DNA of 33,497 nt from Microcaldota archaeon. GTDB taxonomy: Archaea; Micrarchaeota; Micrarchaeia; Micrarchaeales; CABMGC01. The stretch spans positions 1 through 33,497 of the forward strand of contig JAJZKO010000009.1 of NCBI GenBank assembly GCA_021850805.1, given 5' to 3'. Each line of letters begins with the position of its first letter. The stretch's first letter is position 1. Below are positions 107 to 31,412 of the stretch, in pieces. The translations under genes and the position numbers were made by a program. The notes beneath the pieces were generated by a model. That model was not told the DNA's origin, did not search any database, and saw only the letters and a program-made list of their open reading frames with translations.

Positions 107-130
107 TCTTGTTTATGGGGTTATATACAG
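102..130 (+). repeat. Left arm of a 29-bp inverted repeat starting at the last 4 nt of the tRNA-Pro acceptor stem
   Basis: CCCCGTCTTGTTTATGGGGTTATATACAG; its reverse complement occurs at 3344-3372 with one mismatch. Confidence 0.93.
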
Positions 131-168: not shown

Positions 169-193
169 ATTCTTATGACATAATTATTCCTTC

Positions 194-1303: not shown

Positions 1304-1362
1304 GTTTTCAGCAATTCATTAGTGTTTTCTTCTTTAATATTATTCGCCTTCCAGCATATTAG

Positions 1363-1992: not shown

Positions 1993-2345
1993 AAAGAGCC
2001 AATCGAAGAAGAGCTAAAGAAAAATAAGGAATTTGTTGGTAAGTTGATAGAGTGGGGTACAAAGCAAGAAGAGAAGAAGGAAAGGGTCAATATACTGATT
2101 GATGAATGGCCAATTATTGAGCTTGCAAGAATAGGCTATAAGAGTTCTGGTATCTCTGTTTATCTGCCGAAAAGAGTATCAAAGGCACTCAGACTGGATA
2201 AGGGTACAATAAATCGCTCGTTATTATGGCCGATAGATCTTATAGCATCTTATTAATGAAAGATACAAAGGTTGCAGAGATGCGTAAGCCACTCGTTTTG
2301 GATATGCGTAAGGCTTTAGGAGCTAAGTTAGATAAGTTGCCTTAG
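1993..2345 (+). pseudogene. SpoVT-AbrB-like protein gene disrupted by a frameshift
   Basis: Frame 1 encodes ...GISVYLPKRVSKALRLDKGTINRS; the continuation SLVIMADRSYSILLMKDTKVAEMRKPLVLDMRKALGAKLDKLP* lies in another frame from about 2214 to the stop at 2343-2345. No clear start codon near 1993. Family call from the ISVYLPKRVxxAL pattern only. Confidence 0.5.
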
Positions 2346-2358
2346 AGTCTGGAGAAGG

Positions 2359-3276: not shown

Positions 3277-3343
3277 TCTGCTCTCCTTTTATAAAGTATT
3301 ACAGTAAGCCTTTAAATTTGTTTGGAGGGTGCAAAAAGTCGTT

Positions 3344-3372
3344 GCTGTATATAACCCCATAAACGAGACGGG
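3344..3372 (-). repeat. Right arm of the 29-bp inverted repeat
   Basis: CTGTATATAACCCCATAAACGAGACGGGG, reverse complement of 102-130 (28/29). Both ends also carry a subterminal TTTTGCACCC motif (158-167 on +; about 3327-3336 on -). Confidence 0.92.
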
Positions 3373-3423
3373 GGGTTATATACAGAATGGGAAAATGTCC
3401 CCCCTTAAATGATTTTGCACCCC
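3372..3423 (+). repeat. Copy 2 of the 52-bp perfect direct repeat
   Basis: Identical to 117-168 (constant offset 3255); flanking sequence diverges on both sides. Confidence 0.95.
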
Positions 3424-3497
3424 CTCTCAAACCTAAACCAGTCAAATTTCCCGAAAAACAGTTAATTCTATGTATACAAATATTAAGAGAGGTTAAT

Positions 3498-4190
3498 ATG
3501 GGTAAAACTATGAGAAACTTCGGTAATAATCTTGGCCTATTCTTAGCCATACTTGCCTTTTTAGGATTTGGAACCATCTATGTTCTATGGCATTCTATAG
3601 TTGGAGTATTCCAGCCACAACCAATTGCGTACATAACAATAAGTAATTCAACAATTACTGGAAGTTTTAATGCTACTGGAAATGGTACATCCATAGACCA
3701 AATTACATTGTATGGTGAAAATAAAACCCAGTATCACGCTTTAATATCTGGCTCTTCATTCACTGTTACGTTACCAAACAAAAACGCCTCGTATAATGTT
3801 ACTGCAACATGGAATGGAATATATAGTTGGGAAAAAGGAACTGTAGCAAGCACGTCGCCTTTTACATTTAGTACTTCTGACATCTATGCGTCGCAAAGAA
3901 TTATTTTTCAGACACAAGATTCATTTATTATTTCTACAGGGACTGCTTCTACCAAATGGTTTCCGCTTGCATGGGCTTCATCAATAGAGTTTACTCCAAC
4001 AAATGAATCTTTTCAACCAATTACAGCAAATGTAAATTACGGTAGTTATATCGCTAAACTTCCAAACTTTGTAACCTATTCAGTTACAGAGTATTATGCT
4101 GGTGTCCCGAGCGGTAACTGTTCCGAAGGGACTTATCAAGTAAAAGTTACGAATGGCGCTGCTTTCCCTAAAGGGAATTGGACTTGCTAA
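3498..4190 (+). CDS. N-terminally anchored extracellular protein, unknown function
   Basis: ATG at 3498 (MGKTMRNFGNNLG...) preceded by GAGAGGTTA; one N-terminal TM, Ser/Thr/Asn-rich exterior, C-terminal Cys (GNWTC). The track start at 3387 lies inside repeat copy 2 and is unlikely. Confidence 0.7.
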   Translation: MGKTMRNFGNNLGLFLAILAFLGFGTIYVLWHSIVGVFQPQPIAYITISNSTITGSFNATGNGTSIDQITLYGENKTQYHALISGSSFTVTLPNKNASYNVTATWNGIYSWEKGTVASTSPFTFSTSDIYASQRIIFQTQDSFIISTGTASTKWFPLAWASSIEFTPTNESFQPITANVNYGSYIAKLPNFVTYSVTEYYAGVPSGNCSEGTYQVKVTNGAAFPKGNWTC

Positions 4191-4693
4191 CTTAGACTAT
4201 CTTCTATTATTTTCTTCCCATCTTCGTTTATATCATAAATTTTGTAAACGATATTGTTAATATCTCTCTCAATTTTAACGATATTTTCACTTATACTATC
4301 CCGTTTAGTCGCACTTCCATTAATATTCTCATTTAGAGAATTGTACAGGGAGACTAATTTCTTAGCCAGATCAGATAGCTTCGCTTTCTCATTATTAGAG
4401 CAATTCTTTATAGGCAATATCTTTAGTTGCGGCGCTTGGAATTGGAAATATCCACCACCCATTCTTAATCCTGCAAACAATTCAGAGTATACGAAATTCA
4501 TAAGTTTTGAATTAAGAATTGCAGTTAAATATTCCAGATCGTATCCTGCTTGAGGACTATACACACAATTCGTATTTAGAGATGCATATTCACCTTTAAT
4601 ATCAAGAAACCCTTCAGGATTCAATGCAATTTTTGCAAATATTATCTTAGGGGTGTTATACAAAACCTTTCTATTTTCACTGACCTTATCCAT
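4187..4693 (-). pseudogene. C-terminal fragment of an adenine-specific methyltransferase / type IIG restriction enzyme (TaqI-like specificity domain)
   Basis: TPKIIFAKIA...NTNCVYSPQAGYDLEYLTAILNSKLMNFVYSELFAGLRMGGGYFQFQAPQLKILPI resembles the TaqI-like C-terminal specificity domain. No methyltransferase NPPY domain upstream; upstream frame closes at about 4727. Confidence 0.65.
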
Positions 4694-4843
4694 GGCATAA
4701 CCATAAACTTTTAACCCCTTTTCCTTTCTTTATCTTTTTCTTCAACCTGAACAACTGCCTCTTCGATAATCCAATGCATAGCGCCTTCTGTTGTCATGTT
4801 CCTTATAACTTCTGTATCTTTTGCTATGTTTTGTTACCATATC

Positions 4844-5632
4844 TCAACCCCCCTGCAATACCATGCCAGAATTTGTCATGCTAAAATTGATAGAATTGCC
4901 GATATTCCCCGTGATTACAACAACATCCGCATAGAGCGGCACATCGTATCTAGCCGAAAGGCACGTGTAAAAAATAAACGTTCCAGGAGCGTATCCAGTC
5001 TGGTTAAATAACTCCTCGTTAACCATGACTGTTCCAGCTCCAGCTACCGAATAACAAGGCTGTCCACCAAAACTGCCCACCCCGTAATGGTCCGTACTTA
5101 CGTTGCCAATGCTTGTCAAATTAAATAGGTAACCAAGGACTGTTGTGTAAGCAGAGTATGGATAAGAAGAATTCTTGCATATCGACGTCGACGTACCGTT
5201 CTGATTGTCAAAGTTGTATATCACACACCCACGCCCATTTCCTGAGGTCTGGTTCAGATACGTCGTCGCTTCAAGGTCTTCAACATTTGACATATTCATT
5301 AATTTAAGGTCAGACCACGACTGGCTGCCATTCTTGCTATAGAGGAAGCTAAACTGCGGATCGGTTTTATTTATTACTATGGATCCTGAATATGAAAGGT
5401 TTGCAACGGCTGCCGAATTGATTTTCTGCGCCATTATCGAGATAAGAGTGCTTGAATTGAGGTTTTTTGCTGTAATTATTGCATAAGGCAGCGATCCATA
5501 CGTGAAGAAAAGGTATGCGCCTGCGATGATGATTAGTGCGAACAGTGCCAATATAATCCACTTGACCGAACCCCTCCTCTTCTTCCTGACATTCGCATCT
5601 TTTCTAGCCATATAACCGTACAGAGTGTCCAA
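4844..5632 (-). CDS. Membrane-anchored extracellular protein, unknown function
   Basis: 262-aa ORF; likely true start at the internal MARKDANVRKKRRG; basic N-terminus, one TM, many N-x-S/T sequons. Confidence 0.75.
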   Translation of the reverse strand: MDTLYGYMARKDANVRKKRRGSVKWIILALFALIIIAGAYLFFTYGSLPYAIITAKNLNSSTLISIMAQKINSAAVANLSYSGSIVINKTDPQFSFLYSKNGSQSWSDLKLMNMSNVEDLEATTYLNQTSGNGRGCVIYNFDNQNGTSTSICKNSSYPYSAYTTVLGYLFNLTSIGNVSTDHYGVGSFGGQPCYSVAGAGTVMVNEELFNQTGYAPGTFIFYTCLSARYDVPLYADVVVITGNIGNSINFSMTNSGMVLQGG

Positions 5633-5759: not shown

Positions 5760-7013
5760 ATGGCAATTTCTATAAGGGAACTTAAGGATCATCAAAGAGC
5801 CCGCCCTGATCCTATAATTACAGAATTTCCTAAGCCCGAGCAGAAGATCCACAAAAAGAGCCTCCTTACAAAGCTTAAGCGCGGAATTGCTGTAGCTGCA
5901 GTGTCTTCAATAGCACTAATATCTCCATCCACCTCCACCCTTGCTCCGCGAGGTGACGTCCCATTCGAGTATACACAGGAAATAACATCCCCTCCGCTAT
6001 CAAAGGCTGAGACTGGCATAGCCGTGCTGCAGCAAAGCTATGATCCGTCATCCGGGCTGTGGAATGGCGCAAGCTGGTGGCAGGATGCAAGGATATTCAA
6101 CACAATAGTAACATATGCAGCATCTATCGGTAGCAGCAGATATGACTGGGAGATACGCAACACATTCAACATAAATTCCTGGCCAGGTTTCGCGGATAAT
6201 TACAGCGACGATAACGGGTGGTGGTCTATTGCCTGGGCCAACGCATATTCCCTTACGGGCAAAGAAGCATATCTGCAAGAGTCGGAAGCGCTATTCAGGC
6301 AGATGGAAAGCAATTGGACGGGATCGTGCGGCGGCGGCCTTGTATGGAGCCGCGGCACAGGGTACAAGAATGCGATATCAAACGAACTCTTCCTTAAGGA
6401 TGCAAGTATCCTCTACATAAAAACAGGCAGCACATATTATCTGGACTGGGCCGATCGAGAATACAAATGGCTTATGGGAAGCGGGATGATAAACAGAAAC
6501 GGGCTGGTAAATGACGGGCTTACTGCCTCATGCAGGAACAACGGCGGAACGGAGTGGACATATAACCAAGGCGAACTCATAGGCGCGCTTTCATATTTCT
6601 ATGTTGCTGCAGGAAACCAGAAGGCGCTTCAAGTTGCCGAATCAGTGGCAGATTCAAGCATGGAAAACCTTACTTACAAGGGCATCCTCTCAGAGCCAGC
6701 ATGCACCCCTGCAAGTACCTGCCATTACGGCCAGGGACTCTTCAAAGGAGCATACATAGACAATCTCTACTACCTATTCTCGATAACCGGAAAAGAAAGA
6801 TACGCCGGGTTTATACTCAGAAATGCAAGATCCATATGGAGCAGGGACAGAAATGGCAATTATCAGTTCGGGTTCTCCTGGAATGGGAGAAATACATACT
6901 ACTCAATCAGCACAGAGGATTCAGGCACAGATGCTGAGATTGCAGCAAAGGAAACATCCGGGCAAGTTCTTACCACAGCATCCAATCCTGGAATTCTTGG
7001 ACAAAAAAATTAA
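5760..7013 (+). CDS. Secreted/anchored GH76-like (alpha-1,6-mannanase family) glycoside hydrolase
   Basis: DDNGWWSIAWANAYSLTGKEAYLQESEALFRQMESNWTGSCGGGLVW...NAISNELFLKDASILY...GMINRNGLVNDGL...WTYNQGELIGALSYFYVAAG matches the GH76 pattern including the DD pair; hydrophobic segment near residues 42-57. Confidence 0.85.
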   Translation: MAISIRELKDHQRARPDPIITEFPKPEQKIHKKSLLTKLKRGIAVAAVSSIALISPSTSTLAPRGDVPFEYTQEITSPPLSKAETGIAVLQQSYDPSSGLWNGASWWQDARIFNTIVTYAASIGSSRYDWEIRNTFNINSWPGFADNYSDDNGWWSIAWANAYSLTGKEAYLQESEALFRQMESNWTGSCGGGLVWSRGTGYKNAISNELFLKDASILYIKTGSTYYLDWADREYKWLMGSGMINRNGLVNDGLTASCRNNGGTEWTYNQGELIGALSYFYVAAGNQKALQVAESVADSSMENLTYKGILSEPACTPASTCHYGQGLFKGAYIDNLYYLFSITGKERYAGFILRNARSIWSRDRNGNYQFGFSWNGRNTYYSISTEDSGTDAEIAAKETSGQVLTTASNPGILGQKN

Positions 7014-7048
7014 ATAGGGAAGCAAGGCAATACAAATGAGGGAAATGC

Positions 7049-8329
7049 ATGCCTGTATTATTCAAACCCAGAAAAAGCACGCCACCGAAGGTCAGCGCAG
7101 ATGTAACTGAGACATTCGAGAAGGCACGCAAGGTGCTAATAGACAATTCAACTGAGCATGGCATAAAGGCTGCGAGCACCCTGTACAATCAGATATGGTC
7201 CAGGGACTCATTCATAACTTTCATAGGCTCAAACATGCTTGGTGAGGAACGGCTCCTCGAAGCAGCAAAAAGAACCCTGACCACGCTAGGGAGATCAAAG
7301 ACCAGCACGGGGATGATCCCTGTAAACTTTGACCTCTCGAGAGGAAAGCCTCGGCTCTTCTTTGCAGGTGCAACTGACGCGTCTGCTTGGTACATCATAG
7401 GCCTGGCCAACCTTTACCATACGACGCAGGACAGATCTCTTCTTGGCGAGAACCTCGATCATGCTATTGATGCTTATATCTGGCTGAGGTACCAGGATAC
7501 TACAGGTGCAATATTGATAGACAGCCATCCTGCTGCGGACTGGATGGACAACACCGTGATCAGGCAGGGCAAGACGCTTTATAACAATACCCTTTTCCTT
7601 ATCGCAACAAAATGCATAAACTACCTCTGCGAAGAATCAGGCAAGGCAATTGATAAGAGGTTCTCGCTTGATTTTGAGACCCTGAAGCAGCGTTTCAATA
7701 TGCTCTTCGCTCCCGATGAGGAATTCATGCGAAGCGGCCACTGGCCGAACATCGCAGACAGCGACAAGGATTACATAACCAACCCGCCGAGAGGCAAGAT
7801 GCCATTCTACCCTAACTTCATAACGTTTAACCATGTTGACATGCATTTCGACACGCTCTCCAACCTCCTCTGCATAGCCGCTGGCATAAGCGACAAGGAT
7901 ATGGCATCAAGCATACTCTCATACATAGAGTCCAACAAAGTCGCAAGCCCATATCCGATAAAAGTACTGCACCCGAACATGCGCGAGGGTGATAAGTTCT
8001 TTGACAAGGCTTATACCGATGCGAAGCCTAAGCACTGGAGGAACGACGAGTACTGCTACCATAACGGCGGCATATGGCCTTTCGTAGGAGGGTTATACGT
8101 AATCTCTTTGTTGGGAAGAGACAATGGCGCAGCCGGCAGGGAGCTCAAGAATCTAGCCGCTGCTAACTCGATAAAGCGCACAGCAGGAGAAGTCGGGTTC
8201 AACGAATGGCTGCATGGATTGTCAGGAGAAGCCCTCGGTCAGGACGGCCAGTCATGGAGCGCAGGCATGTATGTTGCTGCGTATCTTGCTGCAAAGGGCA
8301 AGGATCCATTTGCGTTCCTCAAAGCATGA
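7049..8329 (+). CDS. (alpha/alpha)6-barrel glycoside hydrolase, glycogen-debranching (GDE_C)/MGH1/GH100-like
   Basis: YNQIWSRDSFITFIG, TGMIPVNFD, DASAWYIIGLANLYHTT, DSHPAADWMDN, HNGGIWPFVGGLYV, GQSWSAGMYVAAYLA. Confidence 0.75.
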   Translation: MPVLFKPRKSTPPKVSADVTETFEKARKVLIDNSTEHGIKAASTLYNQIWSRDSFITFIGSNMLGEERLLEAAKRTLTTLGRSKTSTGMIPVNFDLSRGKPRLFFAGATDASAWYIIGLANLYHTTQDRSLLGENLDHAIDAYIWLRYQDTTGAILIDSHPAADWMDNTVIRQGKTLYNNTLFLIATKCINYLCEESGKAIDKRFSLDFETLKQRFNMLFAPDEEFMRSGHWPNIADSDKDYITNPPRGKMPFYPNFITFNHVDMHFDTLSNLLCIAAGISDKDMASSILSYIESNKVASPYPIKVLHPNMREGDKFFDKAYTDAKPKHWRNDEYCYHNGGIWPFVGGLYVISLLGRDNGAAGRELKNLAAANSIKRTAGEVGFNEWLHGLSGEALGQDGQSWSAGMYVAAYLAAKGKDPFAFLKA

Positions 8330-8350: not shown

Positions 8351-9562
8351 CTAAACCATCTCTTCCTTGAATAAGCTCTTCTCCACAGTCGCCTTTATCT
8401 TATCCGCAGGATAGACGAGCTTTATGAGTTTGGTATGCCCGCGGATGCCCTTGCCGGATTCATAAGTGGATACTATCCCCTGCATCTCAAGGTCTATGAT
8501 GCATTTCCTGTACCAGCGCGTCGTCTTGAACTCCTTCTCCATGCTCTGCGCAAGCGAAGCATATCTGCTGTACACCTCCCCGCTGAATATGTACGTATCC
8601 GTGCCCTCTATAAGCCTCTTGTATTTGCTCCCCTGCATGGTGAGTATCGCAACCGCGTATATGACCAGCTTCTCGTGTTCCGGCAGGGTGTTCAGCAGCT
8701 CATAGGCTATATCCTCTTCTGCGCTCTTTGCCGCCTGCGATACATCCTCTGCAGTTACGCTCTTCGCCTTCTTGCTCTCGGCCAGTTCTCCCGCCACAGA
8801 GATAATCTTTAGCGCCAGCCTCGCATCCCCGCTCTCCCTGGCCGCTATTGCTGCAGCGAGGTTTATCGCCTCCTGGTCTATCCTTCCTTCCTTAAATCCT
8901 GCAGCAGCCCTGTCCTTGAGTATCGCGGAGAGCTCGTTTGAGTTGTAAGGCGGAAAGACAAGCTCGTTCTCGTAAAGGGTAGACAGGCTCCTGGGGTCAA
9001 GCTCGTCCTTAAATGATATGTTGTTCGATATGCCTACTATGGTAACCCCTCCCGACTTGATGTCGCTGTTTGAGCGTGTAAGCGTGTATATCATGTCGTC
9101 AAGGTCCTTCACCATGTCCACCTCGTCCAAGACGACTATGAGTATCTTTCCGTCTTCCTCTACCCAGTTTATGAGCCTCTCGTAGATCTCGGTTATCCCG
9201 TGGCCCCTCTTGGCGTACATTGGAAGATGGTCGCTCATCAGCTTGTAAAAAACCCTGTACCTGGAATTGTATATCCTGCAGTTTATGTACGATATTCTGG
9301 ATTTGGATATGGGGAGCTCCTTTATCTTGCCTATGATATTAAGCATGCATGATGTCTTCCCAGTGCCTGTCTTCCCGTAAAGGAAGAGGTTCCTCCCCCT
9401 CTCGCCTCTCAGCGACGGAGTAAGTACCTTGACTATGGCATCAATCTGCTTCTCCCTGAAGAGAAGCGTCTGCGGTATGTGGTGCTGTGACAGAACCTCG
9501 CGGTTGGCAAAGATCTCAGATTCCTTGAATACCTCAGAAAAAAGCTCATCCATCTTTGCCAC
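8351..9562 (-). CDS. cdc6: ORC1/Cdc6 replication initiator
   Basis: Walker A GKTGTGKTS, Walker B VVLDEVD, sensor GISNN, ORC1-type ELSAILKDRA...GDARLALKIISVAGELA, C-terminal winged-helix region. Confidence 0.93.
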   Translation of the reverse strand: MAKMDELFSEVFKESEIFANREVLSQHHIPQTLLFREKQIDAIVKVLTPSLRGERGRNLFLYGKTGTGKTSCMLNIIGKIKELPISKSRISYINCRIYNSRYRVFYKLMSDHLPMYAKRGHGITEIYERLINWVEEDGKILIVVLDEVDMVKDLDDMIYTLTRSNSDIKSGGVTIVGISNNISFKDELDPRSLSTLYENELVFPPYNSNELSAILKDRAAAGFKEGRIDQEAINLAAAIAARESGDARLALKIISVAGELAESKKAKSVTAEDVSQAAKSAEEDIAYELLNTLPEHEKLVIYAVAILTMQGSKYKRLIEGTDTYIFSGEVYSRYASLAQSMEKEFKTTRWYRKCIIDLEMQGIVSTYESGKGIRGHTKLIKLVYPADKIKATVEKSLFKEEMV

Positions 9563-9569
9563 CTAGGAG

Positions 9570-10367
9570 TCAACGATTTGTTATTTTCTTTATTATGTTT
9601 ATAAACTCTTGTCTTATCCTCTCATCCTCGAGCACAGGCACCTTTCCCTCATCGCTGAGCGTGGAGAGCGCAGGGTCGTTCTTTATTGTGCCAAGGAAAT
9701 CGCATCCAAGCACCTCCGCGGTCTCCTTCCCGCCCTTAGGATCTCCAGAAGACATATTCTCCACAACCCCAAGTATGGCGACCCCAAGCCTCTTTGCCAT
9801 CATGCCCGAGCGCATAGCATTTATGGAGGCAATCTTTGGCGGCGTTGTAACTATCACGAAGCCGTCAAGCTCCAGCAGCTGTATTATGGACAGGGGCGCA
9901 TCACTTGTCCCAGGGGGAAGGTCTATTATCAGGTAATCAAGCTCGCCCCACTCAGTGTTCTCGAAAAACTCGCTTATCATCTTCGCTATGAGCGGCCCCC
10001 TCCATATTATGGGCTTCTTTGCGTCATCGGTAAACATCGCGGTAGAGAGAACCTTCACCCCGTTAACCTCCTGGGGCTTGAGGGGATAGCCCTGCTCAAC
10101 GTAATCGCTTATCCCGAGGAAGAGGGTGACATTCGGGCAGTCTATATCCGCATCCAGAAGCCCCACTGAATAGCCCTGCTCCTTCATCGCAAACGCGAGA
10201 TTAACCGCCACTGTCGTCTTTCCGACACCGCCCTTGGCGCTGTATACCCCTATCTTGTGCTTTATAGCCGCGAGCTTTGTCCTTATCTCCTTCTTCTGGT
10301 TTATTATCTTAAGTATGGAGGGATGCATCTTGGGCATCTGCTCCTGGTTTGCCTCTTCAGTAGCCAT
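9570..10367 (-). CDS. mrp: Mrp/NBP35-family Fe-S cluster carrier ATPase
   Basis: SAKGGVGKTTVAVNLA deviant Walker A, DADIDCPN, IIDLPPGTSDAPLS, GVVENMS. Confidence 0.92.
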   Translation of the reverse strand: MATEEANQEQMPKMHPSILKIINQKKEIRTKLAAIKHKIGVYSAKGGVGKTTVAVNLAFAMKEQGYSVGLLDADIDCPNVTLFLGISDYVEQGYPLKPQEVNGVKVLSTAMFTDDAKKPIIWRGPLIAKMISEFFENTEWGELDYLIIDLPPGTSDAPLSIIQLLELDGFVIVTTPPKIASINAMRSGMMAKRLGVAILGVVENMSSGDPKGGKETAEVLGCDFLGTIKNDPALSTLSDEGKVPVLEDERIRQEFINIIKKITNR

Positions 10368-20644: not shown

Positions 20645-21391
20645 CTACCTTGCAGGCTTTCTGGATGTACTCCTCTTACCAGAAGTTCTGCGGCTGCCGC
20701 TTCTCTTTCTCGAAGGCCTTCGCGTGGCCCTGCTTTTTCCGCGTGCACTGCCTTTATTCGCAGCAGCTTTGCCAGTTGAACTTCTATTAACATCCCTCTT
20801 TCCAGCAGCAACAGATGCTGGCGCTTTCTTCTCAGATTTCGTGGAAGCATGTTTCCTGCTCCTTGTGTAATACCATGCAGCGGCAGCGAGTATAATCAGC
20901 AGCACCACTAATATAACATAAGGAACTATGCTCCCAACCGGTTTGGATGCAAGTATGGAGATATTTTTTGCGACACCGGCCTGCAGATAAGCCCCGCCGC
21001 CTATGGGCGTCGAATTGGATACCTCCGCTACGGAGACTATGCCTATCCATGACGTTCCCGGTGTGTCAGTAGAAGGCATACGTACGGTTATTGCCAGGGT
21101 CTCTTGCGTATGCCCTGCAACAGTGCCATTTGAAGGGCTGATGGTTATGTTGGGCGCTGTCTCGTTAAGGACGGTGCTTAAGTATCCAAGCGTGGCCACA
21201 AATTTTACTGCTGAATTGCCGGTATTGACTATGGTCATGTTCAGAGTCTGCGATGAACCAAGTGTCACATTGAAGTTTACCGGACCAGCAACCTCTCCAA
21301 ACTGCGCATAGCTAAGGGAAAAAATGGAAAATGCAAGAAATAAAAATGGCGCAAGCCTCAAGCCTGCGCTGCCATGCTTCATCTGGAACAC
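20645..21391 (-). CDS. Secreted NEW3/CARDB-like beta-sandwich protein with TM and highly basic C-terminal tail
   Basis: Signal peptide, NFNVTLGSSQTLNMTIVNTGNSAVKFVATLGYL..., TM PVGSIVPYVILVVLLIILAAAAWYY, then ~70 aa Arg/Lys/Ser/Ala-rich tail. Confidence 0.75.
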   Translation of the reverse strand: MFQMKHGSAGLRLAPFLFLAFSIFSLSYAQFGEVAGPVNFNVTLGSSQTLNMTIVNTGNSAVKFVATLGYLSTVLNETAPNITISPSNGTVAGHTQETLAITVRMPSTDTPGTSWIGIVSVAEVSNSTPIGGGAYLQAGVAKNISILASKPVGSIVPYVILVVLLIILAAAAWYYTRSRKHASTKSEKKAPASVAAGKRDVNRSSTGKAAANKGSARGKSRATRRPSRKRSGSRRTSGKRSTSRKPAR

Positions 21392-21398: not shown

Positions 21399-21914
21399 TC
21401 AGCAGCTGTTCTCCAGTATTATGTTCTGGGTGTATGTTCCTGCCGCCTGGGCTACTGGCACATTAACGCCGAAGTATATACTGTTAGAATTTCCTGCTGG
21501 AACAACGGAGCTTGCGACAGGAGTGAGCGTGTTGCTAAGCTGCACGCCTGTTATTGCTGAGCTGCTGGAGACCATATTGTAGGTTGTGTTTGAGACGCCG
21601 AAACCCACAGAAGCCGTGAGTATCCAGTTGGTCCCTTCTATATCTATGGAATTTGCATTTGCATTGCCATTGTTTGTATCAGTAACCAAGACGTTTGTAG
21701 GGTGGAACGTTCCCGGAGCCACATTGCCGAATGTTATCGCATTAGGTGCGAGAGATATCTCGCAGACAGAGCTTACCACTACATTTGCCAGCACGTTGCT
21801 TGTGCTGCTCGTCGCGAATACGCTCCCTACCTGAGAATAAATCAAGACAAGCAATGTAAATGCCGTAAGGCCTATCTGCATTATCAATAACCTTATGCCG
21901 CTTCCTATTTTCAT
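21399..21914 (-). CDS. Secreted protein homologous to the C-terminal module of the 2188-aa protein
   Basis: Likely start MKIGSGIRLL at 21914 rather than the track start 21959; TATA-like TTTATATATT about 35-45 nt upstream; aligns with the last ~130 aa of the neighbouring giant protein and ends ILENSC. Confidence 0.75.
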   Translation of the reverse strand: MKIGSGIRLLIMQIGLTAFTLLVLIYSQVGSVFATSSTSNVLANVVVSSVCEISLAPNAITFGNVAPGTFHPTNVLVTDTNNGNANANSIDIEGTNWILTASVGFGVSNTTYNMVSSSSAITGVQLSNTLTPVASSVVPAGNSNSIYFGVNVPVAQAAGTYTQNIILENSC

Positions 21915-21980
21915 AATCTGCACCAGATGTATCTCATGAGCAAAATATATAAATACCATGTCAGGTATGCCACAAATCCA

Positions 21981-24900
21981 TCAGCAGCTGTTCTCTATGG
22001 TTATGTTCTGCCCGTATGCGCCCGCCACCTGTGCATTTGGCACTCCAACCCCGAAATAGATGTCATTACTGGCTCCGGCTCCTACATCTATAAGAGTGTT
22101 GTAAGGAACCGAAGTGAGAGGGTTAGCAGAAGAGTAACGCGTTCCCGATACGGCATCCCATACGGTATTGCTAACTCCGAAGCTGTTGCTGCCGTATATC
22201 CAGTTGGAGCCGAATACATAAATGTAAGAAGGTGCAGTACCTGTGTTTGTATCTATTATTCCCTTATTTGTTGCTTCAACCCCACCAGGGACAAGAGTGC
22301 CGAAATTAATCTTTGTGCTATTCAGCGATATGGTGCATGTAGCTGAGGAAACAACAGGCGCAGCGCCGAAAGATGTTTCCGGCATCACCCCATTAGGAGG
22401 ATAGGCCCTTACTCTTACCCACTGGAAGAGCGTGGAGAAGGAACCTACTGCATCAGGCCCTTCCACCTCTACCCCTACAGGTTCGCTTGAGATGCTAGGT
22501 GCAGGAGACGTGCTGAAGATGGCCTTATGGTAATCAAAGAACTGCCTCTCGTTTCCCGTGCCCAGCCAGGCGCTGCCCATTATGCCATTTACCGTCTCAG
22601 AGCTTATGTTGCTGGCAACATATCTGGTGCTATTGGTAAGTATATAATATGGCCTCTGGTTCACGCTGAGGTTCTCTATATTATATGCATATCCTGTATT
22701 AACTCCATCGACAAGACCCGAGACCGCACCGGTTCCTATAAACGGTCCAAGCTCGTCAGCAATTATGTTCATATCAGTTGACTTTGCATAAATCTCTACC
22801 ACTGACGGGTTTGAGATTGTAGTTAGAGACTGGACATATGTATAGTTTAATTTCCCTGTTGCCGTCGGCGCCTCTGTGAGAGTAAGCCCATTGTCCACAG
22901 AAAGTGATCCATAAGAACCTATGCCTTCTTTCCATTTGCTCGTATTTAGCGCCGTGCCTGTAAAATTATCATAAAGCGCAAAGACATTCGCCCCGTTGTC
23001 ATATTCTCCGTAGGAGGGGCTGAGCTGCGGCGCCTCGCCCGTAAGATGCGCATTCAGGAGATTGTTCGAAGATGAGATGACGTTGCCCGCAAAACCCATA
23101 AAGAGTTCCAGCGAGCCCCGTGCAGGTACCCCGTTCTTAATCTTAAGCCAGTAGACTATGTCATTGCTCGTATAGAGATTGGAACCCTGCATCATGTTCG
23201 ATGAATTTCCTTCCATCCAGCTTGGTATTACGGATCCGCTTGCGTTGAAAAATTCCACATTGTTTAAGTTGCTAGTTGCGTAGAGCGAGTAATTAAGGCT
23301 GTTTACTACAAGCATCTGCTGGAACGGCGCAGGCGTGGAAGAATTCTGGAGATTGCAGAGCGTCAACGGGAAGTATTTGACTATGCCTGAAGGAACGGAA
23401 GAGGGTGCGGAGACGGTGCTTCTGCATGAGAAGACAGAGGCGAATGTGGTATTCCCTGCCCTGAGCGTTCCGCTCTGCACCTTTGCAGACTGCAGGATAG
23501 TACTCTCGGATACGTTAGGTATCGAGAACTGGTAAGATCCAGGCGCAGTAGAGAATACTATGTTGTTGGGCACCACCGCGCTCTCCGTGACCCCATTATA
23601 TGTTACGCTCCACGTCTCCCCATTATCAAAGAGCCCAAATTCCCTGAAGCTTGTAAGAGGCGAGGATGATACTACAGTGCCGAAGCGTGCGCGAGGCATT
23701 ACCCCATTAGGGGGATACGCCCTTACCCTCACCCACTGGAATGTCGCATACCAGGGGTTTGTAGAGCCTCCGCTTACTCCTGTTGCCTCTACCCCTATCG
23801 GCATAGGCTGAAGTTTGTTGCCTGTATTGTCCCATGTGGTGACCCTGCTGTAGTTATAGTACATCGCTTCACTGCCTGTAGCCAGCCAAACGCCGCCCAG
23901 TATTCCGTTGAGCGAGAAGATAGGCGCAGGATACCTGTCCATGTATGTTGTATCGTTCGCAAGGAACCATGTAGGTGCGAATGTATATGCGGGATTGGCC
24001 GAGGTATTCGTCAGAAACAGATCCCAGTAAGCGTATCCTGAGCTAATGCCATCCCCGGCGCCGCTGTATCCCACTCCGGTAAAAGGCGCAGCTCCCTGAT
24101 AGTTGGTAGTCATTATGTTCGAATTCACATCAGTCTCTACAATCTCCGGATTCGAGAAACTTGTCAGTGACTGCACAAAAGTAATGTAATTATCCTTCTC
24201 CCCTATTGTCAGTCCATCATTCACACTGTAGCTCCCTCCAGTTCCTGTAGTCTCAGACCACTTGCTGGTATTGAGTGCCGTGCCCCGGAAGTCGCTGTAG
24301 AAGTTGAAGACCCTGTAGCCGCTGTCATATTCCGCGTAAGTGGGAGAGAGCTGCGGCGCCTCTCCTATATTATTCCCGTTGAAAAGGTTAGTCGCCTTAG
24401 ACGCCCATCCCATGAAGACTGTTGAGTTTGCATTAGAAGGTATGCTGGCCGAGAGCCTGAGCCAGTAAATGGTGTGGTAAGAGCTGTTTGTATCGTTGGT
24501 CTCAAGCCACGAGGGCACTACAGTCCCATTCCCGTAAAAGAACTCCACATTCTGAAGGTTCCCTGCCTCATAAGCAGAGTAGTTTGAGCTGTTTACTACA
24601 AGCATCTGCTGGAACGGCGCAGGCGTTGCAATAGTTTGGTTGTCTGTGAAATTTATCGGAACATATGCCGATATGCCTGAAGGCACAACCACCGCACTCT
24701 TCGTGAAAGTCACGTTTGTCGTATTGCCTGCTACGAGATACCCGCTGCTCACTGACGGTGTGTAAAGGAATCCCCCTATGCTCCGATCGGGTATGCTGAA
24801 AAGATAATTTCCAGGCGCCGTGGTGGTTCCTACTCCGCCAGGTGAGATCCCATTAAATATCTCAGAATCGTAGGTCACGCTCCATTTGTATCCACTGGGA

Positions 24901-27900
24901 AGGCCTACCTCATTGAATATGCTCTTCACACTTGGTGCTTCTACTGCAGCAAGCTCTGAAGCCGCGCTACCAGCAGGTCCTGGAACTGCAGTCGCAAACC
25001 CGGAACTTGTGAAATTTATTGAGTATGTTCCCGCGCTCTGGTTTAGGCACTCTACAGCCCAGGCACCTGCGAATCCAAAAGAACCTGAATAATTCGAATT
25101 AGTTATAGAATTGCATCTGTTGTTAGGCAGCTTTACTGGCAAAAAAGTGGAATTGCCTGTCGATGCAACTATATATACATCGCTGCCAGAGGTTGCAACA
25201 GTATACGTAAGCACGGAGTTGTAAGAGCCTGCCGCATTTCCGTTTCCGGTATAAAATGTAAGGCTGCTAGGGCTTGCGTTTATCGCAATTCCGCTGATTG
25301 CGAATCCCTGCGCTGCGGAAGGCGAGCTTGCATTGCCGACATTATATGTAGAATATCCCACACTTGAATTATCATAATAGTCCGTTGTTGTACGCCCCTT
25401 AGTAGTACTTCCGGAAACTACCGAGTCTGAAGCCTCAACAGTCCAGTTTACGCCCATGCCTGCGCTTCTATTGTTCCCTCCGTCACCTGCCGCATAGATG
25501 TATGTTTTGTACCCTGTAGGGAGCCTAAGTGAGATGCTGCCCTGTTCGACAGAGCTGTTCGTGCTATTGGCATATGAAATATAAGACTCCGTGCCTCCGT
25601 TTAAAGTGTATAACTTCACGAGACTGCTCAAAGCGGGATAAGCCCGCAACCTCACCCACTGAACTTCGTAAGTGCTGTTCTGGGCAAATCCCCCTATATT
25701 CAATGGGAATGCAGGTATTCCCGAATTCGAGGTTATAAATCCAGTATAATTCACCGTTGCATTAACCGTAGCAGTATTGTTCGCCGCAACCCTTATGGAA
25801 TAAAGCCGGTATCCGCCAAACGCCAATCCCGTAACCCTATGGATAGTAACAGAGTTCCACGTCAAAATGCCATATACTTCGGGGTTAAGCCCCGTCCCCC
25901 CAATGACGCTGAGATTTGTATTTCCGTTAGATGGATTGGGGGATGTTGACATGTAACCAAATGTGCTCCATTGGCAGCATGGTTGTGACGGGGAGAAATT
26001 CCCGAAGAAGTCAAGTACTCCCTGCCCAAGCTTCTTAACTGAGTAAATCTCAGGCGTGTTGCCAATCGCACCTGTCTTGCCGCTCTTTACAACCGTAAGC
26101 CCGTTGTCCACAAGGATCTTGCCGTATCCTGTATTTACCGTATTGTTTACCCACTTGCTGGTATTGAGTGCCGTGCCCCTGAAATCGCTGTAGAAGTTGA
26201 AGACATTATAACCGTCATCGTATTCCGCATAGGACTTGCTTAGCGTTGGGTTCTCGCCTGTAGTTATGTTATTCAATAGATTGGTGCCCCTATAAGCGAA
26301 GCCCATGTATACCGTTTCTTTGCTATTCGCAGGAAGCCCATTCGGAAGCTTTATCCAGTATGTGGTATTCCACGATTTGTTGAGATTTCCGGATTCAGAA
26401 TAATTGTATATATAATTTCCATTCTCAAGCCTTCCTGATTCCAGCCAGGAATTTATCACCGTGCCGTTCCTGTAGAAAAACATGACATTCTGCATATTTG
26501 GGGCTTCCCAAGGGGTGTAGTTCAATCCGTTCACAGCCACCCGCTGCTGGAACGGCGCAGGCATTGCGTTATTGTTTAAGTTCACTATCTCTATCGGCAC
26601 ATAGTACACTATCGGTACAGGGACCACGAAAATGTTCGGATCCTCCGCGCTATAATTCTGGCTTGAAGATGAGCTTAGGTATACGGAGATATTGTCCCCT
26701 ACCGGTATGTTGGTGTAATTTAGGTATTCGGAGAGATTGCCTGTCGTGTTGGAGCCCTGCCCGGCAATACGGGAGCCTTCAAAAGCACTCCAGGAATAGC
26801 CAAGCTTATTTCCTGCTTCAATAGTCGAGTATAAGTGCAGGCTTATGCTGTAGGTACGCTGCAGAGGGTTTACCGGGATGTAAATCTTCCCTGTCGCATT
26901 AGGCGCCCCGAATCCCGCGCTATCTACATTTACCATAAGATGCGGAATTCCTTTAGCAACATCTACCTGCTCCATAATCTTTCTCCCAGTTCCTGGATTC
27001 ATTACAGTAATGTTATATGTTCCAGGCGTGAGGCATGTCTGCGAACCTCCAGAACAGACGCCATATTCCACAGTTCCATTCCCAGTTGCGACCATCGCAC
27101 CGTCAATCTTTATAATTACGCCCGCATTCCGGTTGGATGCCCTTGCCCTTATAGCGAATACCTCCCCATACGCGGCATACGCCGGCAGCTGTACGCTTAA
27201 TGATGGGACGGCGCTTGCATTGCCTATGTACTCATGCGGCATTACTCCGTCAGGAGGGTAGGCTCTGGCGCGAATCATGGCAAAATATGCAGGGTTTGTA
27301 AGACCTGCCCAGGTTACTATACCTGCATACTTGTCTTGCGTTCCTATCAATGAACTGCTCGTTGTGCAGTTTGCAACAATGGCACCTCCCTCCTCAGGGG
27401 TGCGATTGTAAATGTAAGAAGCCAGGTCAGTGCCATTCACTATTCCCTCTATCCAATACCAGCCTGGCTGCCTGCTTCCAGTGTTGCAGAGCGCAGTGTT
27501 GGCTCCTGAAGAAAGATAAGCCACTATCGCCTCGTCCCCCATCCACCCGTCCCCTATTATATAATTGCTTAGCGATGAATCTGAGCTCCCTCTAACAGAG
27601 AAGAGCGCATTCAGGTTGGTTCCTATATTGCCCCAGCCTTCAACGACAAATGAGTTGTAACCCAGTGGCACATTACTCCATGCTACTGTCTCAGGCGACT
27701 TTGATGTAGACCCATTTCCGGTTATCTGTATAACGTTGGAAGGAAACCCGTAAGGGCCAGTCATGGATATGCTGCTTAGCATGCCTCCATTTGCAAGCGA
27801 GAGGTTTCCCGTGCCGCTGCCATTGTAATACATGCTGAATACCGATGCTCCGTTGTCATACCTCCCATATACCTGCGAAAGCTGCGGCGCCTCGCCAGTG

Positions 27901-28547
27901 CCCTGCCCATTCATAAGAACTTCGCTGAGATTTGCAAAGCCCATGTATACAGTCAGGTTAGAATCTGCAGCAATACCTGAACTTATGTTCAGCCAGTATA
28001 CGGTATCCGTTGATGTATTCAGTCTGCTTGCATTCTGCGGGTCATTGAGTCTTATATTCGAGGCGCTTCCTTCGAGCCATGAGTTTATCACGGTGCCATT
28101 ATAATAAAAAAATTCTATATTACTCAGGTTCCCTGCCTCCAGATAAGCATACTTTGAGCTATTTACGTAAATCTCCTGCTGGAATGGCGCCTCAGTGCTT
28201 ATGTTCTGTGCATTGTCCAGCCTTATCGGTATATAATATTCCACAGCAGGCGGAAAGCTAGCTGCAGCCTGTGCGCCTGAATTGCTATAGTATACCGTGC
28301 CGTTTGAATATCCTGGAGATACCTTTATCGATGAGCTGTAGTCCTTCCCATTCGGCGCAGTAACTCCGTAAGCGGTGTACGCGCCTGCAGAAGTATAATT
28401 ATTGCTGGTATTCTGGAGAGAATTGGACGTTCCAGAGAAGTAATATACGCTACCATGCCAATCATGCCTGACATTCACCGCGCCAAGCAAGAAAGCGGCT
28501 CCAAAGGTAATCACAAGAAGCATTACCAAAGCGGTATACCTTTCCAT
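21981..28547 (-). CDS. Giant secreted surface protein (2188 aa) with four DUF2341 modules
   Basis: N-terminal TM/signal; four modules start YYIPIRLDN, YYVPIEIVN, AYVPINFTD and KYFPLTLCN, each followed by APFQQ...NVEFFYxNGTVxxSWLE...VYMGFA...GEAPQLSxxYxEYDxGxxVF and mostly ending VRVRAYPPNGVMP; linker with NEVGLPSGYKWSVTY. Confidence 0.92.
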   Translation of the reverse strand: MERYTALVMLLVITFGAAFLLGAVNVRHDWHGSVYYFSGTSNSLQNTSNNYTSAGAYTAYGVTAPNGKDYSSSIKVSPGYSNGTVYYSNSGAQAAASFPPAVEYYIPIRLDNAQNISTEAPFQQEIYVNSSKYAYLEAGNLSNIEFFYYNGTVINSWLEGSASNIRLNDPQNASRLNTSTDTVYWLNISSGIAADSNLTVYMGFANLSEVLMNGQGTGEAPQLSQVYGRYDNGASVFSMYYNGSGTGNLSLANGGMLSSISMTGPYGFPSNVIQITGNGSTSKSPETVAWSNVPLGYNSFVVEGWGNIGTNLNALFSVRGSSDSSLSNYIIGDGWMGDEAIVAYLSSGANTALCNTGSRQPGWYWIEGIVNGTDLASYIYNRTPEEGGAIVANCTTSSSLIGTQDKYAGIVTWAGLTNPAYFAMIRARAYPPDGVMPHEYIGNASAVPSLSVQLPAYAAYGEVFAIRARASNRNAGVIIKIDGAMVATGNGTVEYGVCSGGSQTCLTPGTYNITVMNPGTGRKIMEQVDVAKGIPHLMVNVDSAGFGAPNATGKIYIPVNPLQRTYSISLHLYSTIEAGNKLGYSWSAFEGSRIAGQGSNTTGNLSEYLNYTNIPVGDNISVYLSSSSSQNYSAEDPNIFVVPVPIVYYVPIEIVNLNNNAMPAPFQQRVAVNGLNYTPWEAPNMQNVMFFYRNGTVINSWLESGRLENGNYIYNYSESGNLNKSWNTTYWIKLPNGLPANSKETVYMGFAYRGTNLLNNITTGENPTLSKSYAEYDDGYNVFNFYSDFRGTALNTSKWVNNTVNTGYGKILVDNGLTVVKSGKTGAIGNTPEIYSVKKLGQGVLDFFGNFSPSQPCCQWSTFGYMSTSPNPSNGNTNLSVIGGTGLNPEVYGILTWNSVTIHRVTGLAFGGYRLYSIRVAANNTATVNATVNYTGFITSNSGIPAFPLNIGGFAQNSTYEVQWVRLRAYPALSSLVKLYTLNGGTESYISYANSTNSSVEQGSISLRLPTGYKTYIYAAGDGGNNRSAGMGVNWTVEASDSVVSGSTTKGRTTTDYYDNSSVGYSTYNVGNASSPSAAQGFAISGIAINASPSSLTFYTGNGNAAGSYNSVLTYTVATSGSDVYIVASTGNSTFLPVKLPNNRCNSITNSNYSGSFGFAGAWAVECLNQSAGTYSINFTSSGFATAVPGPAGSAASELAAVEAPSVKSIFNEVGLPSGYKWSVTYDSEIFNGISPGGVGTTTAPGNYLFSIPDRSIGGFLYTPSVSSGYLVAGNTTNVTFTKSAVVVPSGISAYVPINFTDNQTIATPAPFQQMLVVNSSNYSAYEAGNLQNVEFFYGNGTVVPSWLETNDTNSSYHTIYWLRLSASIPSNANSTVFMGWASKATNLFNGNNIGEAPQLSPTYAEYDSGYRVFNFYSDFRGTALNTSKWSETTGTGGSYSVNDGLTIGEKDNYITFVQSLTSFSNPEIVETDVNSNIMTTNYQGAAPFTGVGYSGAGDGISSGYAYWDLFLTNTSANPAYTFAPTWFLANDTTYMDRYPAPIFSLNGILGGVWLATGSEAMYYNYSRVTTWDNTGNKLQPMPIGVEATGVSGGSTNPWYATFQWVRVRAYPPNGVMPRARFGTVVSSSPLTSFREFGLFDNGETWSVTYNGVTESAVVPNNIVFSTAPGSYQFSIPNVSESTILQSAKVQSGTLRAGNTTFASVFSCRSTVSAPSSVPSGIVKYFPLTLCNLQNSSTPAPFQQMLVVNSLNYSLYATSNLNNVEFFNASGSVIPSWMEGNSSNMMQGSNLYTSNDIVYWLKIKNGVPARGSLELFMGFAGNVISSSNNLLNAHLTGEAPQLSPSYGEYDNGANVFALYDNFTGTALNTSKWKEGIGSYGSLSVDNGLTLTEAPTATGKLNYTYVQSLTTISNPSVVEIYAKSTDMNIIADELGPFIGTGAVSGLVDGVNTGYAYNIENLSVNQRPYYILTNSTRYVASNISSETVNGIMGSAWLGTGNERQFFDYHKAIFSTSPAPSISSEPVGVEVEGPDAVGSFSTLFQWVRVRAYPPNGVMPETSFGAAPVVSSATCTISLNSTKINFGTLVPGGVEATNKGIIDTNTGTAPSYIYVFGSNWIYGSNSFGVSNTVWDAVSGTRYSSANPLTSVPYNTLIDVGAGASNDIYFGVGVPNAQVAGAYGQNITIENSC

Positions 28548-28637: not shown

Positions 28638-29399
28638 TCATCTGGTAAACCTTCCCATAATCCTGGAAATAAATCCGCCTTCAGCCCCTCCTTCCTTTCC
28701 AGAAAATCTCAATGCCATCTGCCTTATGTCTTTGCAGAACCTCGAATTCTTTTTCATCGCATAGGCAGCAATTCTCTCAGAGACGCTGATAGGCACAATA
28801 CTATCCTCTCGGAGTACGCAAAAGACTTTATTGCCGTATATCTCCTCAATCTCGCGTATGGTGAGCTCATAGCTCATGTTCTGCACCCTGTTTACCACCA
28901 GCCTCTGCCTGATGCCAAACTTCCTGTAAACCTTCGCAAGCCTCATCGCACTGGTGCATGAGGGAAAATCAGGAGTGGTAAGTATAAATGCCTCATCGTA
29001 GGACCTTACTGCTTCCTCGGATATTATCCCAGGTGCGGTATCTATAATTACAAAGTCAAAGTTTGTGCTCCTTAGGTTCTCTGCAAATGCGTGCACATCC
29101 CTGTCATTCAGGCTGACCTGTCGGGCGCTCAGTCTTCCGGGAAGGACTATCAACCCAGTCCTTCTGTCCTTTACCACAGCCTCGGAAATCTTCGTTCTGC
29201 CCCTTATCACTTCCAGAGATCCTGCCTCTATATCCTCAAGCCCCAAGTCTATCCCTATGGAAGGATTGGTAAAATCCGCATCCACGAGAAGGACGCTCTT
29301 CCCGATCTGCTCCAGGGCAGCAGCGAAATTAACTGCTACTACCGTCTTCCCAACGCCTCCTTTCTGTGATGATATCCTTATAAGATACGGTTTTCCCAT
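28638..29399 (-). CDS. MinD/ParA-family ATPase
   Basis: ISSQKGGVGKTVVAVNFAAAL, LLVDADFTNPSIGIDLGL, FVIIDTAPGI, LVVNRV; C-terminal amphipathic GGFISRIMGRFTR. Confidence 0.9.
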   Translation of the reverse strand: MGKPYLIRISSQKGGVGKTVVAVNFAAALEQIGKSVLLVDADFTNPSIGIDLGLEDIEAGSLEVIRGRTKISEAVVKDRRTGLIVLPGRLSARQVSLNDRDVHAFAENLRSTNFDFVIIDTAPGIISEEAVRSYDEAFILTTPDFPSCTSAMRLAKVYRKFGIRQRLVVNRVQNMSYELTIREIEEIYGNKVFCVLREDSIVPISVSERIAAYAMKKNSRFCKDIRQMALRFSGKEGGAEGGFISRIMGRFTR

Positions 29400-31412
29400 C
29401 TACTCCCCTCCATCCTCCATCTCTCTCTTTATCTTCTCAAGCCTCTCAACCCTCCACTTCCTGTATACGGGCCTGCTGCGAATCTTAATTATGCTCGCCA
29501 CTATGATCAGGAGCCCAAGCGCGGCCAGAATGCCCCTGTAAGCATATCCAAGGAATCCGGAGTAGCCTACGTTCACGGTCGGCTCCACAGGTATAGTTGT
29601 AGTCGTAGAAGTGTATACCTGCCTTGCAAGCACATCCTCAGTAACAGTGTAGCTCTTTGTCCTATTCCCTATGGTAATGTTGATATATGCGGAGTATGAT
29701 CCCGGCGAATATCCTGCAACGAATGGGAATCCTCCATCCACCGCGCTGTCAGGTGCAAGATGGTATTCTTCCGCACCCTTGCTTAGGTATATCCCACTAG
29801 GGGCATACGCCGATATCAGCACGTTTGCTTCAGACGCACCAGTATACACGAAGGAGAAATTTATGGAGCCATCTGCGCCAGTATAAACAGGCACAGAGGC
29901 AAAACTTACAATAGCCGCAGAAGACGAGAAAGTGAGGCTGCGCTGGTACTCAAGCCTCTCTGTGGATTGCTCGAGGAGATAGGGGTCTGAGACATTGGAT
30001 ATCGAATAGTATACGTACTTATCAGCCGCTGCTGCAGGAATGCTCCAGCTTATCACATAAGAGCCGTTGCTGTAGCTCACATAGTTCGGGAATCCGTACG
30101 CCTTTATGTCTGAAGCTGAATTTGTGATTGCCTTAGGGATATACACCATCAGCGTGTAGTTGTACAGGCCTGTCGAGTTTACGCTAAGGTTAACATTTAT
30201 CCTTCCCGAGACATTCGTATAGCTGTTTGAGGCGCTCAGCTCCTCTGTTATCGCATGCCCCGTAGTGCTGGAATTGTACATGTAAAATTCATAATATGAA
30301 GTCGAGTTGTAAGATGATCCGTAAGTGCCCCTTGCAGATACTGTTATAGGCACACTGTATACTCCCTGCACATCCCTGGAAGCTGTGAAGGCGATGCTTA
30401 CAAACAGCCTCTCCCCCGGCGCAAGGTAGCCCCTCCCTGAAGATATGTTGGCTACATTCCTGTATCCGAATGGGGTACTGACATTTATGTACTCTCCTAC
30501 CGTACCGTTGTTCTTAATCTCCATCTGCGAATACACAGTCTGCCCAAACGGCGCAGATACGTAAAACGGCACATACAATATCTCAATATGCGGCGGAGGC
30601 GGAGGCGGCGAGCTTGGCTGCTGCGGCTGATTGCTGAAGACCGTATACGAAGAGGTAAAATTATTGCTTCGCAGCCTCAGCCCTCCTGAAGAGTAATTCA
30701 TGTAAATGATCATGGTATAGGTGCCTGTGGCACCACTGACTCCGTTAAGCACAAAATCCTGGGATCCGCTGCTTCCAGGCGCCAGACCATTAACCGGAAA
30801 AGAGTAATCCCTGCTGATAGGCCCCCTTACCTGTATATATAATGTATCGTTTACGGAAGAAAGGTTTCCCCTGTTACTCTCGTTTACCTGCAATCCAATC
30901 TGCGATCCCTGTAGTATGCTCTGCTGCATCTGCACGGGCCCTATAATCATATTCGCAGGCAGGAGCAGCGCGAATCTTGCAGTACTTTCATTGTGATAGC
31001 CCACATACGAGACGTTAAAGACCGCTGTATAATTCCCGTATTCAAGCGTTGACGTGTTCACCTCTAACGTATTGGACTGCACCGCTCCAGAGGCAGGGGG
31101 AAGAGGAAACTGCTTGTAATACACGAGCGAGTCTGCAGGCTGACGGTACAGGCTTATGCTTCCGTTTAGCTCTGACGTAGTGCACCCTCCGATGGAATTG
31201 TACGAATACGGAAACGATGCGTTAGTCCCTATCACATAAAATGCATTCGCAGAGACTGAGACATGAAGCCCGCAGAATACCGTCACGTTAGCGGCTATGC
31301 TACTTCCGCTGCTGGCAAAACCCGAGCCAGAAAAGAACAAGAGAAAAGCAATAATGCAAAGCGGTAAATGCGGATTGCGATGTCTATTACAATGTATGCC
31401 TGCACCCATCAT
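29400..31412 (-). CDS. Large surface protein with C-terminal TM anchor and short cytosolic tail
   Basis: 670 aa, signal peptide, repeated beta-sandwich-like segments, PPPPPP linker, C-terminal TM GILAALGLLIIVASIIKI then basic tail; its TAG is directly followed by the MinD-like ATG. Confidence 0.82.
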   Translation of the reverse strand: MMGAGIHCNRHRNPHLPLCIIAFLLFFSGSGFASSGSSIAANVTVFCGLHVSVSANAFYVIGTNASFPYSYNSIGGCTTSELNGSISLYRQPADSLVYYKQFPLPPASGAVQSNTLEVNTSTLEYGNYTAVFNVSYVGYHNESTARFALLLPANMIIGPVQMQQSILQGSQIGLQVNESNRGNLSSVNDTLYIQVRGPISRDYSFPVNGLAPGSSGSQDFVLNGVSGATGTYTMIIYMNYSSGGLRLRSNNFTSSYTVFSNQPQQPSSPPPPPPHIEILYVPFYVSAPFGQTVYSQMEIKNNGTVGEYINVSTPFGYRNVANISSGRGYLAPGERLFVSIAFTASRDVQGVYSVPITVSARGTYGSSYNSTSYYEFYMYNSSTTGHAITEELSASNSYTNVSGRINVNLSVNSTGLYNYTLMVYIPKAITNSASDIKAYGFPNYVSYSNGSYVISWSIPAAAADKYVYYSISNVSDPYLLEQSTERLEYQRSLTFSSSAAIVSFASVPVYTGADGSINFSFVYTGASEANVLISAYAPSGIYLSKGAEEYHLAPDSAVDGGFPFVAGYSPGSYSAYINITIGNRTKSYTVTEDVLARQVYTSTTTTIPVEPTVNVGYSGFLGYAYRGILAALGLLIIVASIIKIRSRPVYRKWRVERLEKIKREMEDGGE

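Follow-up and report, generated by a model that had tools for sequence, protein, structure and literature searches.

A conserved pair of surface-protein and MinD-family ATPase genes in a candidate archaeal attachment module

This locus raises the question of what a MinD-family ATPase does among genes for surface proteins. The window (the whole stretch of DNA that was analysed, 33,497 nucleotides) carries five genes on the same (minus) strand, in the order: P2, MinD, a giant DUF2341 protein, a small ENSC protein and a PapD-like transmembrane (TM) protein (Table 1). An earlier note on this DNA had placed the ATPase start directly after the stop codon of the surface-protein gene and the giant gene 90 bp further downstream, and both junctions were found as described: the TAG of P2 immediately precedes the ATG of MinD (gap 0), and the giant open reading frame (ORF) begins 90 bp downstream of MinD. 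Features added here to those in the note are a conserved cytosolic tail of P2, a domain common to the giant and the 186-aa protein, matched N-terminal strand motifs and a PapD-like fifth gene.

Table 1. Coordinates of the five genes and of the features discussed (positions in the window)
Feature	Position	Strand	Basis or description
P2, 670-aa surface protein	29400..31412	-	signal peptide, Ig-like (CARDB/NEW3-type) ectodomain, TM helix, cytosolic tail
P2 mature N-terminal strand motif ASSGSSIAANVTVFC, candidate donor strand	31272..31316	-
P2 TM helix, about residues 622-643	29484..29549	-	hydropathy
P2 cytosolic tail, residues 644-670 (27 residues), candidate MinD docking peptide	29403..29483	-	conserved
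MinD-family ATPase, 253 aa	28638..29399	-	Walker motif, family profiles, PDB matches
MinD C-terminal membrane-targeting-like segment GGFISRIMGRFTR	28641..28679	-
Giant secreted protein, 2188 aa, DUF2341 domains, presumed adhesin	21981..28547	-	DUF2341 2.9e-13
Giant C-terminal ENSC domain, C2071 to terminal C2188	21984..22337	-	homologous to the 186-aa protein, without the N-terminal strand motif
Small secreted ENSC protein, 186 aa, Ig-like beta sandwich	21399..21959	-	invariant C66, C186
248-aa protein with PapD/ASH/WxLIP-like domain, TM helix and basic cytosolic tail	20645..21391	-

Conservation of the locus

The same five genes were found on a second contig of the same assembly (G000:C8, locus L055), which aligns to the window over its entire 19.9 kb at 85.3% identity. 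Comparison of the two contigs gave dN/dS values of 0.07-0.15 for all five genes, which indicates purifying selection. Because the gene order recurs in relatives and all five genes are under purifying selection, the arrangement lies beyond chance. The five genes may constitute one surface-attachment module with a dedicated MinD; for this model taken whole (strand exchange, docking and positioning included), we consider the chances evenly divided.

Linkage was assessed in two ways. In a first set, MinD homologues were found in 59 relatives and their surroundings were read. P2 was also used as an independent bait, with 90 P2 matches versus 142 MinD matches in the 164 genomes of the order. Order-wide, a MinD match was located directly downstream of 75 of the 90 P2 matches (67 genomes, median gap 17 bp). 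At the 40 loci picked by P2 alone, MinD followed 32/42 P2 genes by ORF calling and 34/42 after addition of two MinDs that were missed by the caller and found by HMM search; genes of the relatives were called by ORF length, on contigs of which many are short, and the related genomes behind these counts are not independent. The usual order in relatives was P2, MinD, giant, one to three small ENSC proteins and a protein of the 248-aa type. Distant P2 proteins (E 1e-46 to 1e-22), encoded in other families of the class, were also followed by MinD at nearly all loci where neighbouring sequence was available. In these far families the giant and the small gene lie upstream of the P2-MinD pair, and since the pair itself is kept there, it is the most constant unit of the locus. 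The synteny comparison proposed in the earlier note, which had named a lack of conserved linkage as the outcome that would speak against its reading, therefore returned strongly conserved linkage.

Two variations of the locus were recorded. At seven far-family loci (L201-L206 and L210), a gene of 300-375 aa, encoding a lipoprotein-like or membrane-anchored product, lies between the small secreted gene and P2. On contig G017:C5, a 5658-aa open frame contains a P2-like module (8516-10288) and immediately precedes another P2 gene with its MinD.

The distribution of P2 bears on another reading, namely that the module builds or anchors the S-layer instead of an adhesin. The secreted proteins are Ig-like and rich in N, S and T, and S-layer anchoring in Micrarchaeum is unknown (PMC8975820), both of which would suit that reading; however, the module is patchy (strong P2 in 74/164 genomes of the order) and the giants differ greatly in length and sequence among relatives, unlike a constant lattice protein. 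A role in the S-layer is accordingly regarded as improbable.

Several features of the surrounding sequence were also noted. Positions 1-5000 of the window have a low GC content (34-36%, versus about 50%), begin at a tRNA-Pro gene (34-106) and contain a DUF5655 gene (2359-3276) and a TaqI_C-type specificity domain (4187-4693); the region resembles an integrated element that retains remnants of a restriction-modification system. Adjoining glycoside-hydrolase-like genes occupy positions 5760-8329, the first being of the GH76 (alpha-mannanase) type, and its product possibly acts on surface glycans. Homologous contigs (G000:C8, L055; G000:C2 and G000:C3, L057 and L056, respectively) are 85-86% identical over their whole length, so the assembly seems to be a mix of two closely related species. 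The FtsZ protein is 100% identical between the homologous contigs (dS 0.61), and the surface genes differ.

The ATPase and its putative membrane partner

The ATPase of the window carries the deviant Walker A motif KGGVGKT with its signature lysine, and residues K13 (signature lysine), K18 (P-loop) and the switch residues D42 and D120 were invariant in all 29 aligned relatives; its active site is complete. The protein matched the Pfam families AAA_31, ParA and CbiA, the NCBIfam model minD_arch (2.7e-35) ranked ahead of minD_bact, and among solved structures those of the MinDs 1ion and 1g3q were matched at 4e-23; CapA/CapB chimeras were among the weak PDB matches. With the model of the archaeal cell-division MinD (TIGR01969), it scored 121.8 bits, below the curated cut-off of 201.75. 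Of the earlier label "MinD/FlhG-like", the first half is retained, the best models being those of MinD; the likeness to FlhG is unspecific.

In the MinD tree, a well-supported orphan clade (14 rows, support 100/98) stands apart from the operon MinDs. The genome of the window carries both kinds, an operon MinD and a second MinD of the orphan clade; the cell thus has more than the operon MinD to rely on. This separation within one genome upholds the earlier proposal of a dedicated ATPase in the surface-protein operon. A MinD that serves cell division or general functions and belongs to the operon by position alone would be compatible with membership of the MinD family and with the FtsZ gene present in the same window. 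This reading is poorly supported and very improbable: the distinct orphan clade exists alongside (own genome included), most P2 genes across the order are directly followed by MinD, no MinE was detected in 30 relative genomes (control genomes were positive), and none of the four Haloferax MinDs affects division (PMC11588486).

Two unusual arrangements of MinD genes were observed in relatives. Six adjacent MinD-like genes (L066 6159-11061, G017:C40) form one clade (100/99) that is not beside P2, and its members mostly have no C-terminal membrane-targeting block. At L043 5743-7128 (G045:C21), MinD and the next ENSC protein share one 461-aa open frame, which is either a fusion, or the product of a lost stop codon or sequencing error; the joint protein would tether MinD by a TM helix.

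The C-terminus of MinD had been likened to the amphipathic membrane-targeting helix of this family. The block was scored as hydrophobic-hydrophobic-(K/R)-hydrophobic-hydrophobic within the last 24 residues, and was present in 39 of 61 P2-linked MinDs (64%; 7.5 expected in shuffled tails and 1.8 in body segments), in 5/24 orphan MinDs (21%) and in 7/8 P2-linked MinDs of the far families; the strict block is absent from one third of the operon MinDs. By hydrophobic moment alone the MinD C-termini could not be separated from shuffled tails, which the motif count does achieve. The likeness is therefore a sequence feature enriched in operon MinDs, of which the window copy, GGFISRIMGRFTR, is itself a weak example; relatives end, for instance, in GIIAFLKRLFRLGG or IASFLKRLFGLRLR.

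The putative membrane partner, P2, had 28-30 relatives in the first set, and CARDB was matched in 14/28 members (best 1e-07). Its TM helix lies about 45 residues from the protein end and is followed by a short tail of the type RYxxxRAxxLxxIxExIKR within the order and YSxERLxYxxSLxKL in the far families. By column conservation, identity was 0.30 in the tail versus 0.19 in the TM helix and 0.14 in the linker, about equal to that of the ectodomain; some ectodomain blocks surpass the tail, which is therefore not the best-conserved region of P2. A narrow regular expression for the tail caught 30 of 82 sequences, and the case for a conserved tail thus rests on alignment and column conservation.

Two genomes are informative about a link between tail and ATPase. 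In G115 (L087 14168-16096, G115:C4), P2 ends right after the TM helix and the cytosolic tail is missing; there is no MinD between P2 and the giant (gap 152 bp), and the sole remaining MinD of the genome belongs to the orphan clade. In G112, the P2 tail is retained though MinD is located elsewhere in the genome, where it groups outside the orphan clade, and this counts against docking of the tail to MinD. On balance, we consider it somewhat probable that the P2 tail docks MinD.

A tail of this kind could also transmit a signal. CapB, a MinD-like BY-kinase, is activated by the cytosolic tail of CapA, and P2-MinD resembles this pair in that a one-TM partner with a short cytosolic tail is translationally coupled to a MinD-fold ATPase; the short P2-MinD gaps moreover suggest a fixed stoichiometry. 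The ATPase cycle of MinD, read through the P2 tail, might then gate the assembly, display or turnover of the adhesin rather than its place. We hold this to be rather unlikely, as neither a tyrosine-rich tail nor a Wzz domain is present, the best-matching family is MinD, and the membrane-targeting-like C-terminus is typical of positioning MinDs. Clustering or positioning of the complex by MinD is the reading followed below, and it could go either way with equal probability. The polarised placement or export of an attachment apparatus suggested in the earlier note stays at the level of a proposal.

Secreted proteins and matched N-terminal strands

The final domain of the giant corresponds to the small protein in its entire mature form: both are the ENSC domain, which opens with a cysteine and has another as its last residue. 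In the far families too, the giant C-terminal domain resembles the small protein, and the small proteins of those families do not align with ENSC as one family. The structural model of the small protein (pLDDT about 90 in the domain) is an Ig-like sandwich, with GH123 N-domains, the TasA fibre (E 1.4e-03), a Csu pilin (4.4e-03) and PapD-like domains as top matches; its Z-scores of 7-8 to pilins are tied with those of unrelated Ig folds. Searches of ENSC against PDB sequences returned nothing meaningful, and the families to which ENSC members matched did not include WxL. From its size, its DUF2341 domains and its secretion, the giant is probably an adhesin. A role of the module in attachment to a host or a surface is inferred.

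Both P2 and the small protein carry, immediately behind the signal peptide, an alternating hydrophobic motif, (V/I/L)xAx(V/I/L)x(V/I/L)...C. The motif was detected in 43/60 P2 and 31/47 small proteins, in 0/35 giant C-terminal domains, in 0/39 proteins of the PapD-like 248-aa type and in 8 of 276 further ORFs whose starts are hydrophobic. Profile comparison of P2 with the small protein aligned exactly these 14 columns, i.e. the N-terminal strand only. The far families have different motifs that are still matched within the operon, such as ADFASTRVFFIL with SDFAGSRAYFIN, or TTTLTYF with TTTQTYL. Overall, the N-termini of P2 and the small protein were more alike within than between operons (p = 0.0002). 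Cognate pairs in the far families scored 31.3 versus 22.8 for shuffled pairs (p = 0.0002); within the order the difference was weak (27.0 versus 25.6, p = 0.09), and the pairs are phylogenetically non-independent. Such a distribution of the motif is what one would predict with the giant as an acceptor-only tip, the small protein as a connector and P2 as the base. Complementation of the ENSC domains by the N-terminal strands is proposed on these grounds, at slightly less than an even chance.

The PapD-like protein encoded at the end of the locus has one TM helix and a basic tail. The model of its PapD-like domain gave Z-scores of 11.0-12.0 to chaperones of chaperone-usher systems, to the Enterococcus faecium WxLIP structure 9i1y and to eukaryotic ASH domains; the match to 9i1y (Z 11.7 over 115 residues) is tied with many PapD-like folds. 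Ig-like folds are common, and GH123 N-domains and eukaryotic ASH/MSP domains score equal to pilins and chaperones. The PDB matches of the 248-aa protein are eukaryotic Ig domains of the HYDIN/CFAP65 type, which were set aside as a resemblance at the level of the fold. Profile comparison of the 248-aa protein with P2 gave no real match.

The N-terminal motif could be understood differently, as a signal by which a common export factor processes or sorts both proteins, in which case ENSC would bind the PapD-like protein or the S-layer in a WxL-like manner. The position of the motif directly after the signal peptide would suit such a signal, the layout equals that of a WxL cluster (a small protein, a large protein ending likewise and an Ig-like TM protein; PMC10599100), and WxLIP_PGBD (PF06030) matched 4/18 members of the 248-aa family (best 2.5e-05), with the window protein below the cut-off. 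In a processing signal, however, hydrophobic residues would not have to alternate along an entire strand, the absence of the motif from the giant C-terminal domains is as expected of an acceptor-only tip, and no WxL domain (PF13731) was found in the own genome (the Lactococcus control was positive). The sorting-signal explanation is therefore judged unlikely, and strand complementation is carried forward.

Relation to known systems and proposed mechanism

TadZ/CpaE and FlhG are MinD-like ATPases encoded in pilus and flagellum loci. The present locus is like these in that a MinD-like ATPase is encoded with a surface appendage, and unlike them in its cargo, which would be an Ig/DUF2341 adhesin module. 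The neighbouring genes in the window were seen to include neither a secretion ATPase nor a platform protein nor a type IV pilin; the three T2SSE ATPases of the genome are located on other contigs. In Haloferax volcanii, the archaeal MinD2 and MinD4 place archaella and chemosensory arrays, not the division site (PMC11588486), whereas here the MinD gene is physically linked to those of a putative membrane partner with a conserved tail and a presumed giant adhesin.

Outside the cell, three systems offer comparison. In the Gram-positive WxL/WxLIP cluster, WxLIP is predicted to contribute a strand that completes the WxL sandwich, and this cluster likewise combines a small protein, a large adhesin with the same C-terminal domain and an Ig-like TM protein (PMC10599100); our locus differs by the additional P2 base and MinD, and no peptidoglycan target is expected in an archaeon. 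In TasA/TapA fibres and archaeal bundling pili, Ig-like subunits are joined by N-terminal donor strands, and the base protein TapA carries the same strand sequence (PMC9674648). P2, the candidate base at this locus, has its N-terminal motif in common with the small protein, and a shared donor strand was argued for TapA and TasA by the same reasoning (PMC9674648). No sequence homology was found, the tip would be a giant adhesin and MinD is added. Chaperone-usher pili (FimH/FimG/FimC) also have a tip adhesin whose pilin-like C-terminal domain carries no donor strand, and a PapD-fold partner; unlike them, the present system has no usher or outer membrane, its PapD-like protein is a TM protein, and the resemblance is at fold level only. 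Given the MinD score, the results for MinE, WxL and secretion ATPases, and the unspecific fold matches, the module was not placed in any known system. It is best called a MinD-type system with new cargo, inside like archaeal MinD2/MinD4 and outside like WxL, TasA or chaperone-usher systems. Among open-licence papers, none was found on a MinD-coupled adhesin in these archaea.

The proposed mechanism is as follows. Outside, the giant DUF2341 protein would act as the adhesin, and the ENSC domains of its C-terminus and of the small protein would be incomplete Ig-like sandwiches, each completed by a donor strand: the N-terminus of the mature small protein would fill the giant, and the matching N-terminus of P2 would fill the last ENSC domain, which would make P2 the membrane base. 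The PapD/WxLIP-like TM protein may chaperone the ENSC domains or help to anchor them. Inside, the short basic tail of P2 would dock ATP-bound MinD, which would bind the membrane through its C-terminal amphipathic segment; ATP-dependent dimerisation and membrane cycling of MinD would cluster P2, and hence the adhesin, or position it in the cell. The locus might then specify a new archaeal surface organelle, a donor-strand adhesion fibre or tether with a base clustered or moved by its own MinD, inherited across a class that is probably host-dependent; this wider proposal is held to be less likely than not.

The small genome, the archaeal gene set and the kinship within a single class suggest a DPANN archaeon, probably of the Micrarchaeota. 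If so, it belongs to a group whose known members are found attached to other cells, and the module would bear on how such cells build and place their attachment sites. Filaments and remodelled sites of contact have been observed in a Micrarchaeum co-culture (PMC8975820), so localisation would be testable there if the organism carries the module. The module offers testable parts, i.e. an ATPase, a membrane base with a putative docking tail, strand-linked connectors and a giant adhesin. If the model is true, the adhesin would be a new class of cargo for MinD, and the logic of strand assembly would be common to these archaea and bacterial biofilm fibres.
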